DNA of 48,091 bases from Candidatus Rokuibacteriota bacterium (lineage in GTDB: Bacteria; Methylomirabilota; Methylomirabilia; Rokubacteriales; CSP1-6). The position numbers were made by a program, and so were the translations under genes. The stretch lies in contig QHRU01000136.1 in NCBI GenBank assembly GCA_003220225.1, positions 1 to 48,091 on the forward strand. The letters are read 5' to 3'. How positions within the stretch are numbered: the stretch's first letter is position 1; each line of letters opens with the position of its first letter. Under the pieces are notes generated by a model, which ran no database searches, was not told the DNA's origin, and was given only the letters and a program-made list of their open reading frames with translations. Below, piece after piece: positions 5,082 to 23,267 of this stretch.

Positions 5082-6101
5082 CTACTTGACGATCAGTCCA
5101 GTCGGCGCCGCAGGAGGGGCGGTGTCTGGAGAACCCGATGGGAGACACCCGATGTAACTCTTCGCAACGACGACATGGTCGAACTTCATGTCTTGCTTGA
5201 ACCCCGGGGGATCGTCGGGGGAGTAATTCTGAAGCCAGATCCAGTTGAGGTTGAGACTCGAATCGCTCCGCCATCGGAATCCCTCAAAGGGGCTGCCGCT
5301 CGGGTCCTGGGTGAAAATCCCGCCCGACCACCGGCCGTTCGGAAACCCGTGGCCAAGGTGGCTGACTTTGACTCCGTCAAGCCAGATCGCATGCTCGCCG
5401 TTCGAGGCGCTGATCGGATTATTGAGCCTGACCATATGCTCCACGCACGTCCATTGACCGGCTTTCGCCTGCACAGCCGGATCATCGAGGAGGAAATTCC
5501 CCCAGTACCTTCCGTCTCTCGAGACACGCATGTCCATCCAATAGTCGTAGTGATCGAGGCGGTATGTAACGTTGTTTTGCTCAGCCGCCGCGCTGAACCG
5601 GTCATGACCGACGGGCTTGACCCCCGCCTGGGGATTCGGCCAGGAGAGCGGCGGGTTGTAACCTCCGACCCAGATCCCGGTGTGGTGGTACCTGCCGCTC
5701 GCGGGGTACTTGATGTAGTAGCGGACATAGAGCCTGTCGTCGACGCCGGGGCTCAGCCGCTTGTAGAGATGGCCGCCGTCATTGACTCCGCCACCCGCCC
5801 ACGGGATGTTGAGCGAGTGCCTGCCGGAGCTGCCGGCTGGAACATCGGAACTGAACGACATGACTGAACCATTGAGGATGTCCGTCCACCTGTTGAAGAG
5901 CTCGGTCAGCGTGGCCTCCTCGAACTTTTCGACAAAGATCACGTCGGGGTGATTCTCGATGCCCACGTCTCCCGGGTAGAGCGCAGCGATTCCGTCCGCG
6001 GAGGCATCGGGAGCGACGTGAAGAACGCAGACGGTGAGGACCAGCCCGAGGGTCCGAAGGAGAACGACGCGCCTGATGGCGGACGCGGGCGTGCAGCGCA
6101 T
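5082..6101 (-). CDS. Secreted lectin/glucanase-fold-like protein under riboswitch control
   Basis: A 339-residue exported protein. An N-terminal hydrophobic segment ends near 'PDASADG', consistent with a Sec signal peptide. The rest is rich in aromatic residues and short beta strands ('RYYIKYPASGRYHHTGIWVGGY', 'HAIWLDGVKVSHLG', 'LNWIWLQNY'), a pattern seen in concanavalin-like jelly-roll carbohydrate-binding or polysaccharide-lyase proteins; the family name is inference. The C terminus stops at 'DTAPPAAPTGLIVK', which looks like the first strand of a fibronectin type III repeat, so the ancestor may have been longer. ATG at 6101 has AAGGGG upstream and is preferred to an in-frame start at 6131. 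The GEMM riboswitch at 6171-6259 lies in its leader. Confidence 0.8.
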   Translation of the reverse strand: MRCTPASAIRRVVLLRTLGLVLTVCVLHVAPDASADGIAALYPGDVGIENHPDVIFVEKFEEATLTELFNRWTDILNGSVMSFSSDVPAGSSGRHSLNIPWAGGGVNDGGHLYKRLSPGVDDRLYVRYYIKYPASGRYHHTGIWVGGYNPPLSWPNPQAGVKPVGHDRFSAAAEQNNVTYRLDHYDYWMDMRVSRDGRYWGNFLLDDPAVQAKAGQWTCVEHMVRLNNPISASNGEHAIWLDGVKVSHLGHGFPNGRWSGGIFTQDPSGSPFEGFRWRSDSSLNLNWIWLQNYSPDDPPGFKQDMKFDHVVVAKSYIGCLPSGSPDTAPPAAPTGLIVK

Positions 6102-6146
6102 GGTGATCCCCTTCTTCCGGATGACCACCATAGTTCCCGAGGAGCC

Positions 6147-6163
6147 CGCGCTCCGGGAGCGCG
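6147..6163 (-). promoter_or_regulatory. Hairpin between riboswitch and start codon
   Basis: Arms CGCGCTC and GAGCGCG with a three-base loop form a strong stem just 3' of the riboswitch and about 45 bases before the ATG at 6101. No T-run follows on the transcribed strand, so it is not a classic intrinsic terminator. It could be the expression platform; this is inference. Confidence 0.5.
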
Positions 6164-6170
6164 TCCGCTG

Positions 6171-6259
6171 CCTTCCTTCGGTAGCCCGGCTGTCAGGTGC
6201 ATCACCTGACCCGCGGCTTTGCGTCCCCGCCTCGCGGCAGGTTTGCCCTTTCGGGAAGG
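6171..6259 (-). ncRNA. GEMM-I riboswitch (cyclic di-GMP-I or cGAMP class)
   Basis: The minus strand carries the GEMM-I hallmarks in order: GGGCAAACC, a CCTGCC-GCGA-GGCGGG hairpin with a GNRA loop, GGGACGCAAAGCC, a second long hairpin (GTCAGGT ... ACCTGAC), and GGGCTACCGAAGG. CCTTCC at 6254-6259 pairs with GGAAGG at 6171-6176 to close the outer stem. This matches the Vibrio Vc2 type consensus (GGCAAACC ... GGGACGCAAAGCC). It lies about 70 bases upstream of the secreted protein gene at 6101 and in the same direction. Ligand choice between c-di-GMP and 3',3'-cGAMP depends on a single binding-pocket position that I cannot place safely. Confidence 0.92.
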
Positions 6260-6631
6260 GGTCTCCGCGTCAAGGAGCGTGCAGCCGATATGCCAATGCG
6301 GAGCTCGCTCCAGGCCTATCGGGAGGCGCGCGAAATCCCAGCGGTTGCCGTCAGATGGGTGCGGAGTCAGCTCCCGGACGCTCTGTGGAAAAGTCAGGAG
6401 ACCGCGGCGGTGGTGCGGCTCTGTGGACAGCGTGACACTGTGAACGCGAGGGCCGCTGCTTCGAGCAGCGACGCGGCGGCCTGAGGTATCTGAGACCACT
6501 CAGAGTCAATGACGAGGCTCACGTACTATGCCCGCTGGCCCTCTCGGTGGACATCGGCCTTCCCGCACCAGGGCTCCCCGTCCTTTCGGGAGGCGCGGAC
6601 GGAAATGCCCCGCTACGAACCCAACAAAAAT

Positions 6632-6768
6632 AAGTTGGTGGCCCCAACGGGATTGGAACGTCTGTTTCAGCCTTGAGAGGGCCAGCCCATGGGTAGTGGT
6701 TTCACCAACTTCCACGCCGGGTGCCACGACCCGGTGCCACTCGAGGCCCCGATCTGCTCCGAGGATGC
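6632..6768 (-). repeat. tRNA-Glu-like dispersed repeat, copy A
   Basis: Member of the dispersed family described under findings. On the plus strand AAGTTGGTG (6632-6640) and CACCAACTT (6703-6711) are inverted. Between them on the minus strand is a T-arm/acceptor 3' half ending GGGGCCACCA. This copy is more diverged: the T-loop reads GATTGGAAC instead of GATTCGAAC. The outer part has the hairpin CCGGGTGCCACGACCCGG and ends GAGGATGC. It lies immediately downstream of the TRAP operon. Confidence 0.85.
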
Positions 6769-9952: not shown

Positions 9953-10318
9953 ATCTGATCGACCAGGGCAGCTCGCTCGCCGGCGAGCACCCGTCCGCCG
10001 TGGGTCGAAGCCGGCACACTCTGGCCAGGCCGAAGGACGCGCACGTCATTACGAAGCGTGACGGTCGGGGGCTCGGTGCGGCCGCGGACCTTGGAGAGGC
10101 GTGTCAGCTCGGCTCGGCCTGCCCGCAGCTCCTCTGGTGAGCGATTGATCGGGTGCCAAGCGGCCCCGAACTGGACGGTGCGGCGGAGCGCGGCCCTGCT
10201 GTGCCCCCCGACCCAGATCGGTGGGTACGGCTTCTGCAGCGGTTTGGGCTCGAAGACGAGTCCGCTGAACTGCGTGTACTTACCAGTAAACGACGGCTCC
10301 CGACTGGTCCAAAGCTCA
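9953..10318 (-). pseudogene. Duplicated internal fragment of an LLM-class oxidoreductase gene
   Basis: These 366 bases match 20648-21013 with three differences by my reading, so it is a very recent copy of the central to C-terminal part of the LLM oxidoreductase gene at 20.5 kb. It codes from 'LWTSREPSFTGKYTQ' to 'ERAALVDQI', without the N-terminal barrel strands or the natural C terminus. The reading frame remains open through the fragment but enters unrelated sequence on both sides, so no functional enzyme is expected. It lies next to the orfA remnant. Confidence 0.93.
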
Positions 10319-11355: not shown

Positions 11356-11602
11356 AGGGCTAACGTGGCATCGCCGGAGAACAATAGACGCAGGATCGCG
11401 AGCGAGTCAACATTGCGATGTTTGGAGTCGGCTTCGTCGAGACGGCCGGCTCGAGGAGACGCAGGCCGCGATCTCCCAGCTCAACGGGCGCGAGCGCGAC
11501 GACCCACGGATCACGGTCGACGACCAAAACGGCGGTCGACGGCTCCCGTCGCCTATCGGACAGACATGGAAAGCTGTCGCGCAAAGAGCAATCGAATCCC
11601 AA

Positions 11603-11730
11603 TTTGGTGGCCCCAGCGGGATTCGAACCCGCGTCTCGGTCTTGAGAGGGCGAGCCCACGGATAGTGATTTCACCGACTTCGACGCCGGGTGCCACGGCC
11701 CGGTGCTACTCGAAACCGCGGCCTACGCCC
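11603..11730 (-). repeat. tRNA-Glu-like dispersed repeat, copy B
   Basis: Contains the complete minus-strand 3' tRNA half: CCTCTCAAG anticodon-loop remnant, GCGGG-TTCGAAT-CCCGC T-arm, TGGGGCC acceptor strand and ACCA. The inverted end is altered (CACCGACTT). The outer hairpin CCGGGTGCCACGGCCCGG is intact. It lies in a gene-free gap between the phzF remnant and the GIY-YIG gene. Confidence 0.88.
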
Positions 11731-11893
11731 TACAACGAGTGCGCCGACGGCGAGGACGCGGGCGACGCGCTTCATTTTGGTGCGTTCCGCGTGGTGCGTT
11801 CCGCGCTCGCATCATTCGGATCACCTCATCCGCCCGCAGCAGTAGCGACGGTGGGATCGTCAACCCGGGCCAGGGGTGCACGCGTCGGATCAG

Positions 11894-15381: not shown

Positions 15382-15476
15382 GGGTGCACATAGTCGACGA
15401 CGATCATGTAAGGAATTGGGAGGGTCCGTGCCACGGCGATTCGTACATCGTAGGTCTCTATCTCCGACTGTCGGTC

Positions 15477-15615
15477 AAGTTGGTGGCCCCAGCGGGATTC
15501 GAACCCGCGTCTCGGTCTTGAGAGGGCGAGCCCATGGGTAGTGATTTCACCAACTTCAGCGCCGGGTGCCACGAGTCGGTGCCACTCGAGACGCAATTTG
15601 CTCCGAGGATGCCGC
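15477..15615 (-). repeat. tRNA-Glu-like dispersed repeat, copy C
   Basis: One of the best copies. AAGTTGGTG (15478-15486) and CACCAACTT (15549-15557) form a perfect 9-bp inverted repeat around the minus-strand tRNA 3' half with CTCTCAAG, TTCGAAT T-loop, GGGGCC and ACCA. The outer hairpin is degenerate here (CCGGGTGCCACGAGTCGG). It ends in GAGGATGCCGCCCTC next to a tiny basic gene. Confidence 0.9.
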
Positions 15616-16402: not shown

Positions 16403-16616
16403 GCCGGGCTGCGCATGCCGAGCGACCTTGCAACCAATGGCCTGAGACCCCGTCGATCCTGAGTGGCTTTTCGGCTCCCCCGCCTCGGGCCGTGAGCCTA
16501 GCCCTCCTGTCGGAGAGGCGACTATGACGACGAAGGAAAGAGCGAACGAACGGTGTAGCCGTTCCATGCGGGTTCGGTGGCATCGCCGCTCGGCGTACTC
16601 TTCTGACGGAGAACAA

Positions 16617-16751
16617 TTTGGTGGCCCCAGCGGGATTCGAACCCGCGTCTCGGTCTTGAGAGGGCGAGCCCATGGGTAGTGGTTTCACCAACTTCCACGC
16701 CGGGTGCCACGACCCGGTGCCACTCGAGACCGCGATCTGTCCCGAGGATGC
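16617..16751 (-). repeat. tRNA-Glu-like dispersed repeat, copy D
   Basis: Full-length copy. Minus-strand tRNA half identical in the T-arm and acceptor to copies B, C and F; short inverted ends TTGGTG/CACCAA; intact outer hairpin CCGGGTGCCACGACCCGG; tail ending CGAGGATGCG. It lies between the DUF3800 and MFS remnants. Confidence 0.9.
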
Positions 16752-20437: not shown

Positions 20438-20518
20438 AGTTGGTGGCCCCAGCGGGATTCGAAACCCGGGTGCCACGGCCCGGTGCCACGCGAGACCGCG
20501 ATCTCTCCCGAGAATGCC
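20438..20518 (-). repeat. tRNA-Glu-like dispersed repeat, copy E (internally deleted)
   Basis: Same ends as the other copies (AGTTGGTGGCCCCAGCGGGATTCGAA ... tail CCCGAGAATGC), but the middle, including the anticodon-loop remnant and the CACCAACTT end, is missing. The deletion joins the two GAACCCG/CGCCGGG-like short repeats. It separates the LLM gene from the amidohydrolase gene. Confidence 0.85.
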
Positions 20519-20526
20519 CCAGCCGC

Positions 20527-21426
20527 TCAGGGAAGCCTCGGGCGCACCTGCTCGGCGAAGGTGGTCATCTGCTCCACGAGCTCGTGGCCATCGGCGGCGA
20601 GGAATTCGAGAACCAGGTGTCCAACGCCACAGTCCGCCAGCTCGACGATCTGATCGACCAGGGCAGCTCGCTCGCCCGCGAGCACCCGTCCACCGTGGGT
20701 CGAAGCCGGCACACTCTGGCCAGGCCGAAGGACGCGCACGTCATTACGAAGCGTGACGGTCGGGGGCTCGGTGCGGCCGCGGACCTTGGAGAGGCGTGTC
20801 AGCTCGGCTCGGCCTGCCCGCAGCTCCTCTGGTGAGCGATTGATCGGGTGCCAGGCGGCCCCGAACTGGACGGTGCGGCGGAGCGCGGCCCTGCTGTGCC
20901 CCCCGACCCAGATCGGTGGGTACGGCTTCTGCAGCGGTTTGGGCTCGAAGACGAGTCCGCTGAACTGCGTGTACTTACCAGTAAACGACGGCTCCCGACT
21001 GGTCCAAAGCTCACGCATCGTCTCCAGATATTCATCGGTCATGGCGCCGCGCTCCGCAAAGGGCACGCCGAGCGCGACGCTCTCGGCGGCCACCCAACCC
21101 GCGCCGATCCCTAGAATGCAGCGGCCGCCACTCAGCGCGTCGAGCGACGAGACCATCTTGGCCGTAACGACCGGATTCCGGTACGGGACGATGAGGACTG
21201 TCGTCCCGAGTCGGACTCGGCTGGTCGCCCCGGCGACGACAGCGAGCGTCACGAGCGGGTCGAACACCGTCTCGCCGAAATTGACGACGTTGGCGTGCGG
21301 CACGACGACATGATCACTAACCCAAATGGAGTCATAGCCCAGATGCTCGGCGCGAATGGCTGTGCTGCGGATGATCTCTGGAGTCGCCAGGTGTCGGCAG
21401 TTGGGAATCCACACACCTACGTTCAT
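20527..21426 (-). CDS. LLM-class (luciferase-like) F420- or FMN-dependent oxidoreductase
   Basis: A 299-residue TIM-barrel flavin/F420 enzyme. The N-terminal 'MNVGVWIPNCRHLATPE', 'AEHLGYDSIWVSDHVVVP', 'RVRLGTTVLIVPYRNPVVTAKMVSSLDALSGGRCILGIGAGW' and 'EYLETMRELWTSREPSFTGKY' are the standard order of motifs, with 'PIWVGGHSRAALRRTVQFGAAWHP' later. AGGAGG five bases before ATG 21426 fixes the start over an in-frame start at 21483. Its central and C-terminal part is duplicated at 9953-10318. Probably works with the hydrolases downstream on an unknown compound. Confidence 0.93.
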   Translation of the reverse strand: MNVGVWIPNCRHLATPEIIRSTAIRAEHLGYDSIWVSDHVVVPHANVVNFGETVFDPLVTLAVVAGATSRVRLGTTVLIVPYRNPVVTAKMVSSLDALSGGRCILGIGAGWVAAESVALGVPFAERGAMTDEYLETMRELWTSREPSFTGKYTQFSGLVFEPKPLQKPYPPIWVGGHSRAALRRTVQFGAAWHPINRSPEELRAGRAELTRLSKVRGRTEPPTVTLRNDVRVLRPGQSVPASTHGGRVLAGERAALVDQIVELADCGVGHLVLEFLAADGHELVEQMTTFAEQVRPRLP

Positions 21427-22960: not shown

Positions 22961-23081
22961 AGACCCTACCGCCTGCCGCATCCAGCAGTCGACAGGGGAG
23001 ATCTTAAAGCTCGAGGCAAACCTTCAGACTGCGCGTTTGAATAAAGTGCGCGTTTCTTACGTGCCATGCTCATGGAAGACC

Positions 23082-23195
23082 AATTTGGGTGGCCCCAGCG
23101 GGATTCGAACCCGCGTCTCGGTCTTGAGAGGGCGAGCCCATGGGCAGTGATTTCACCAACTTCGACGCCGGGTGCCACGGCCCGGCGCCACTCCG
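23082..23195 (-). repeat. tRNA-Glu-like dispersed repeat, copy F
   Basis: Minus-strand tRNA half intact (CTCTCAAG, TTCGAAT T-loop, GGGGCC, ACC). An extra G interrupts the left end (TTTGGGTGG). The outer hairpin CCGGGTGCCACGGCCCGG is intact but the tail after CACTCC is replaced by other sequence. It lies just before the MalG-type remnant. Confidence 0.87.
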
Positions 23196-23267
23196 CGGGC
23201 TCTTCCGCGGCCGGACGCGCAAGCGCAGTCGGACGATCAACCAGAGCCAGGGACGAGAGAGCACAGG

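Follow-up and report, generated by a model that had tools for sequence, protein, structure and literature searches.

A c-di-GMP riboswitch lies on the minus strand between a sigma-54-type promoter and the gene for a predicted exported protein, and we consider it probable, at about 0.8, that it belongs to a sigma-54-dependent transcript and acts on its translation; this figure does not include the direction of switching. The window, the whole 48,091-nucleotide stretch of DNA that was analyzed, is an entire contig of a 6.0 Mb genome of Candidatus Rokuibacteriota (order Rokubacteriales). The same stacking of promoter and riboswitch was found at most RF03167 loci compared, almost all of them from this order. 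Coordinates of the features are listed in Table 1.

Table 1. Features of the riboswitch locus and its surroundings (window positions)
Feature	Position	Strand	Basis
Gene for a 339-aa predicted exported protein, polysaccharide-lyase-14-like (sub-threshold)	5082..6101	-	ORF; PF21294 E 0.0018
Shine-Dalgarno-like AAGGGG for ATG 6101, weak match	6108..6113	-	Direct sequence reading
Shine-Dalgarno-sequestering hairpin: AAGGGG and part of AUG paired with AUGGUGGUCAUCC	6099..6132	-	MFE fold
Upstream hairpin of the expression platform	6135..6158	-	MFE fold
c-di-GMP-I-GGC aptamer with G20, A47 and C92	6176..6256	-	RF03167 match; contact numbering per PMC3764141
5' leader GCGGAGACCCCU	6257..6268	-	Start inferred from the -12 element
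Sigma-54-type promoter TGGCATATCGGCTGCA (GG-N10-GC)	6280..6295	-	Consensus scan, 15 of 15.5
Promoter block common to the window and the C91 paralog, 79% identity	6272..6351	-	blastn, window vs L024
Att-like repeat ending in a 3' tRNA-Glu fragment; lies 5' of the promoter, outside the switch itself	6629..6768	-	

The Rfam cmscan of the whole window gave a single match, to RF03167 (c-di-GMP-I-GGC), with 69.5 bits (E 1.6e-14) against a gathering cut-off of 59 bits and covering model positions 1-80 of 80. An earlier note on this DNA had read a complete GEMM-I core from the letters and proposed a scan with the general c-di-GMP-I model RF01051, which scores 72.5 bits on the same site; neither covariance score is poor. 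Both conserved tracts, GGGCAAACC and GGGACGCAAAGCC, are present, P2 is capped by the GNRA loop GCGA, P3 is present, and the fold closes P1 by pairing CCUUCCCG with CCGAAGGAAGG, as the note had described. The assignment to the GEMM-I type was retained, and the subclass was corrected to GGC (RF03167). J1/2 is one base shorter than in the model, a length variant also seen in several relatives. The aptamer ends 74 nt upstream of the ATG at 6101, in agreement with the spacing of about 70 bases given earlier. Judged from these features, the riboswitch is genuine and of an already known class.

The ligand had been left open between c-di-GMP and cGAMP. The contact bases for c-di-GMP, which follow the published Vc2 numbering (PMC3764141), are G20, A47 and C92, and all three were found in the window aptamer. 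The genome contains seven RF03167 matches above the cut-off and one degraded match, each on a different contig, and all seven full-length aptamers have G20 and C92. It also encodes six GGDEF proteins, four of which were read and carry intact, ordinary GGDEF/GGEEF motifs. Because the three contact bases are present and GGDEF proteins are encoded in the genome, the predicted ligand is c-di-GMP and not cGAMP. An alternative is the sensing of another cyclic dinucleotide such as cGAMP, which GEMM-I binds once G20 is mutated to A (PMC7288161). A20 occurs in four loci of the order, but the window has G20 instead of the A of the cGAMP type, as do its sister aptamers, so we regard this alternative as very improbable. 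Among the 102 loci of the comparison set, defined by a score of at least 45 bits, position 20 is G in 97 and A in 4. The four A20 aptamers, L107 (G046:C56), L110 (G070:C100), L113 (G047:C89) and L114 (G052:C134), share the same regulon architecture and are candidates for an altered ligand.

The downstream gene is a 339-codon ORF starting at ATG 6101, and the hydrophobic N-terminus of its product bears out the earlier description as an exported protein; an alternative in-frame ATG at 6131 could be the true start codon. A lectin-like jelly-roll fold, proposed in the same note, was not established. The sole family signal is polysaccharide lyase 14 (PF21294), which at 18.4 bits is below the curated cut-off of 27, and the AlphaFold models that were to reveal the fold were poor (pLDDT 28 with three homologs and 36 with seven), probably from lack of homologs. 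Foldseek found no match at E<=0.001, PDB sequence and profile searches with the protein found none, and NCBIfam and PHROGs contained no match for it. Homologs are rare, occurring in 2 of 60 order genomes, in four genome-collection matches and on one phage contig. All seven homologs match PF21294 weakly, and one matches Cip1-like (PF21340). The target is probably a secreted protein that binds or cleaves polysaccharide. Of the suggested link between a second messenger and a surface carbohydrate protein, the riboswitch upstream of an exported-protein gene stands, and the carbohydrate side consists of the sub-threshold PL14 signal.

In the homolog of Rokuibacteriota AR26 (genome G052, a family-level relative; contig GenBank QHSR01000025.1), the same domain makes up the core of a larger protein, 943 aa long, that has Ig-like/fn3 modules. 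Its gene lies 58 nt behind an RF03167 riboswitch, and the next gene has lyase-like domains. By sequence comparison, the combination of riboswitch and target domain is therefore one that recurs in a second genus.

The window's genome also contains a paralog of the gene on contig C91 (L024), 82% identical to the window gene. Similarity between the two loci breaks at 6272 and restarts within the coding sequence at codon 12 (6067). The interval between the shared promoter block and codon 12 is 28 nt in the paralog compared with 204 in the window, so the aptamer and the platform are missing from the paralog, which has kept the sigma-54 element. Since the AR26 homolog has a riboswitch, loss in the paralog would be more likely than gain. 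The two genes form a natural plus/minus pair with matched promoters, a ready control in the same genome.

The absence of the aptamer from the paralog raises the question of whether the window's copy is itself a relic that is decaying on a mobile cassette and has lost regulation. Decayed aptamers do occur: one on contig C121 of the same genome (L022, G000:C121:12839-12888) scores 32 bits and has lost P3, and one at L134:500-690 has the core GGGACGCAAAGCC deleted; both have kept the sigma-54 promoter and the platform. The gene is also patchy (2/60 genomes). However, the window aptamer has all its contact bases and both stems intact and scores above the cut-off, and the reading frame is unbroken, which makes decay at this locus very unlikely.

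A repeat of about 140 nt occurs in five copies in the contig, read on the minus strand: the one in Table 1 and those at 11598-11737, 15474-15613, 16612-16751 and 23080-23219, with further fragments at 20441 and 46112. In these elements, the arm-like repeats GTGGCACCGGG/GTGGCACCCGG precede the tRNA-Glu fragment. The presence of five att-like copies on a single contig points to serial integration, which would make this region an accretion island. The intact tRNA-Glu is on contig C94, and the C91 paralog has the same tRNA-Glu fragment beside a tyrosine-integrase remnant. The phage homolog (L182:1666-2637, IMGVR_UViG_3300050507_000056) has a signal-peptide-like start and is located between portal and head-scaffold genes. 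Elements with tRNA-Glu as their attachment site are the probable vehicle of the gene. Elsewhere in the contig, positions 9953-10252 and 20648-20947 are a 300-nt duplication with 99% identity, the first copy overlapping a partial luciferase-like ORF and the second a full one.

Sigma-54 promoters have GG at -24 and GC at -12, spaced by 10. The window site TGGCATATCGGCTGCA has both elements at this spacing, is near the consensus and lies immediately 5' of the predicted transcript start; it is one of only two sites in the window scoring at least 15. RpoN is encoded in the genome (PF04963, E 1.1e-61). For 97 RF03167 aptamers from 60 order genomes and class relatives, the preceding 85 nt were scanned in the same way. 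Almost all of these loci are from Rokubacteriales, and their sequences are related to one another, although de-replication removed only 4 of 94 promoters. Sites scoring at least 12 were present upstream of 88 of the 97 aptamers (91%), compared with 13% in dinucleotide shuffles, 21% on the reverse strand and 13.5% in stretches 300 nt further upstream. At a score of at least 14, the value was 77%, compared with 0.3% in shuffles and none on the reverse strand or further upstream. All seven full aptamers of the window's genome have the promoter, as does the decayed aptamer on C121. The site is mostly 36-47 nt upstream of the aptamer, so that transcripts should begin only about 10-20 nt before it, as estimated from the position of the -12 element. 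In addition, a GATTTCC element, mostly 41-45 nt before the T of the -24 element, accompanies 22 of 94 promoters compared with 1 of 94 control stretches, and the window has kept GATTTC at about this position.

The possibility that sigma-54 sites are merely common in these genomes was considered and rejected: a score of 14 is reached in about 0.5% of 85-nt stretches of the window's genome, and in the ANGP1 phylum, where RF03167 was found in 43 of 43 genomes searched, a score of at least 12 was reached at only 7 of 32 loci and of at least 13 at 5 of 32. As few ANGP1 loci have a site, the coupling to sigma-54, as read from these upstream regions, is a property of the lineage and not of the aptamer. 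In the same phylum, L155, L163, L175 and L177 carry RF03167 aptamers in tandem or closely spaced in series.

The short leader between promoter and aptamer has two halves. One extends P1, and the other, GGAGACC, has its complement in the anti-Shine-Dalgarno strand GGUC-A-UCC; in the window it faces GGUCAUCC, with a bulged A in the pairing. The window leader is predicted to form a duplex of -15.6 kcal/mol with its own anti-Shine-Dalgarno strand, compared with a mean of -12.9 with those of all loci. Over the loci, the approximately 18 nt before the aptamer have a mean predicted duplex energy of -12.8 kcal/mol with their own anti-Shine-Dalgarno strand, compared with -10.6 when strands were exchanged and -7.7 for shuffled leaders (permutation 0/5000, z -7.6; z -6.8 after de-replication). 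The window platform is stable relative to dinucleotide shuffles (z -2.9; 0 of 200 shuffles as stable). In 58 of 83 loci, folding places the Shine-Dalgarno sequence in a hairpin ending at the start codon, with a pairing probability P>0.7. In the papers searched, we found no description of either the sigma-54/riboswitch coupling or the complementarity of leader and anti-Shine-Dalgarno strand; within this scope, the stacking of the riboswitch on sigma-54 promoters across the order and its two-faced leader appear to be unreported, and the riboswitch-free control in the same genome adds to what is new.

Simple equilibrium folding with P1 forced or forbidden left the Shine-Dalgarno sequence mostly closed in either state, and only the relative cost of opening it is informative. 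In 31 of 70 loci, formation of P1 made opening cheaper by more than 1 kcal/mol, and in 2 it made opening dearer. The effect depends on the leader sequence: when the distal leader was scrambled, the mean effect of P1 on opening changed from -1.33 to -0.62 (p 2e-4). These folding results are consistent with a switch acting on translation, which is part of the overall figure given above, and with c-di-GMP turning expression ON, a direction that we favor with moderate confidence. At the window locus, opening costs 8.5 kcal/mol both with and without P1, and since this difference is zero, the ON assignment rests on the family.

With the opposite sign, P1 would capture the CCCCUU of the leader and the anti-Shine-Dalgarno strand would be out of reach, so that c-di-GMP would mean OFF. 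At many loci, the ACCCC with which the leader lengthens P1 is at the same time part of its complement to the anti-Shine-Dalgarno strand, which makes the two pairings partly exclusive, and the 3' strand of P1 has an alternative partner (GGGGUG/CACCCC) in many platforms. Set against this are the opening costs, 31 loci to 2, and the positive regulation of gbpA by Vc1 (PMC4744006), the nearest analogue to have been tested. We consider OFF a serious contender that is nevertheless the less probable sign.

With c-di-GMP as an ON signal, the proposed mechanism has two gates in series on an mRNA whose extreme 5' end would be the riboswitch. A sigma-54 activator would open the promoter as the first gate, and the new RNA would fold with its Shine-Dalgarno sequence and AUG held in a hairpin. 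Binding of c-di-GMP would be the second gate, closing P1 with the CCUU strand of the leader. This closure would place the leader GGAGACC beside the anti-Shine-Dalgarno strand, and their pairing would free the ribosome site. As the riboswitches are almost always right behind a sigma-54 promoter, surface-protein production in this order appears to require two independent signals.

The 99 genes downstream of RF03167 include those for fn3, bacterial Ig, response regulator, glycosyltransferase, concanavalin-like and pilin proteins, with fn3 proteins at many order loci. Type IV pilin-like genes are right behind the promoter and riboswitch at L072, which has an N_methyl domain, and at L093. At L042 and L105, the riboswitch controls a response regulator that has PilZ and GAF domains, so that a c-di-GMP-sensing RNA is placed over a protein that probably senses c-di-GMP as well. 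A SECIS_4 match (RF01990, 42.3 bits vs 38) at L124:4379-4416 (G052:C286), in a Rokubacteria genome, is probably chance or an unusual element.

Four loci (L027, L094, L104 and L052) carry riboswitch-controlled sigma-54 activators composed of response regulator, Sigma54_activat and Fis HTH domains. All four are among the 9 of 97 loci at which the sigma-54 promoter is absent (hypergeometric 3.6e-5), although two of them are 98% identical, leaving effectively three. An activator on a non-sigma-54 promoter with the same kind of riboswitch as its targets suggests a feed-forward circuit as a hypothesis for the order. The window's genome has no close ortholog of the riboswitch-controlled activator of other genera (best match 49% identical), so the hypothesis is confined to the order level. 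Tentatively, and with somewhat less than even confidence, we propose a dedicated Rokubacteriales surface regulon: almost all c-di-GMP riboswitches would start a sigma-54 transcript, some sigma-54 activator genes would have such a riboswitch behind a non-sigma-54 promoter, c-di-GMP would gate activators and targets in a feed-forward manner, and a leader acting both as a strand of P1 and as an anti-anti-Shine-Dalgarno would do the switching.

Most work on c-di-GMP riboswitches treats them as stand-alone switches. In the present case, a whole order appears to join the riboswitch to sigma-54, with an activator signal for transcription and a second messenger for translation, and the regulon predicts which uncharacterized surface, pilin and glycosyltransferase genes of this little-studied soil lineage are responsive to c-di-GMP.

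Compared with known systems, the window aptamer has the same core and contact bases as RF03167 (clan CL00126, together with RF01051, c-di-GMP-I / GEMM-I) and matches it at full length, but differs in the shorter J1/2, in the sigma-54 promoter directly upstream and in the leader complementary to the anti-Shine-Dalgarno strand. The target protein and all its homologs have weak local similarity to PF21294 and the Cip1-like core (PF21340); in the window protein, this similarity is below the curated cut-off and extends over about 37 aligned residues, so that no catalytic claim is possible. Multiplied fn3 surface-protein genes with GEMM riboswitches in Geobacter bemidjiensis resemble many of the order loci, although this organism is from a different phylum and the part of the report consulted states no sigma-54 link (PMC2996986). 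The Vc1 riboswitch of gbpA in Vibrio cholerae likewise belongs to c-di-GMP-I and precedes the gene for a secreted protein that binds carbohydrate, a function that is putative for the window protein; it regulates positively in response to c-di-GMP, whereas its protein is unrelated, its leader is 225 nt long and no sigma factor is named (PMC4744006).
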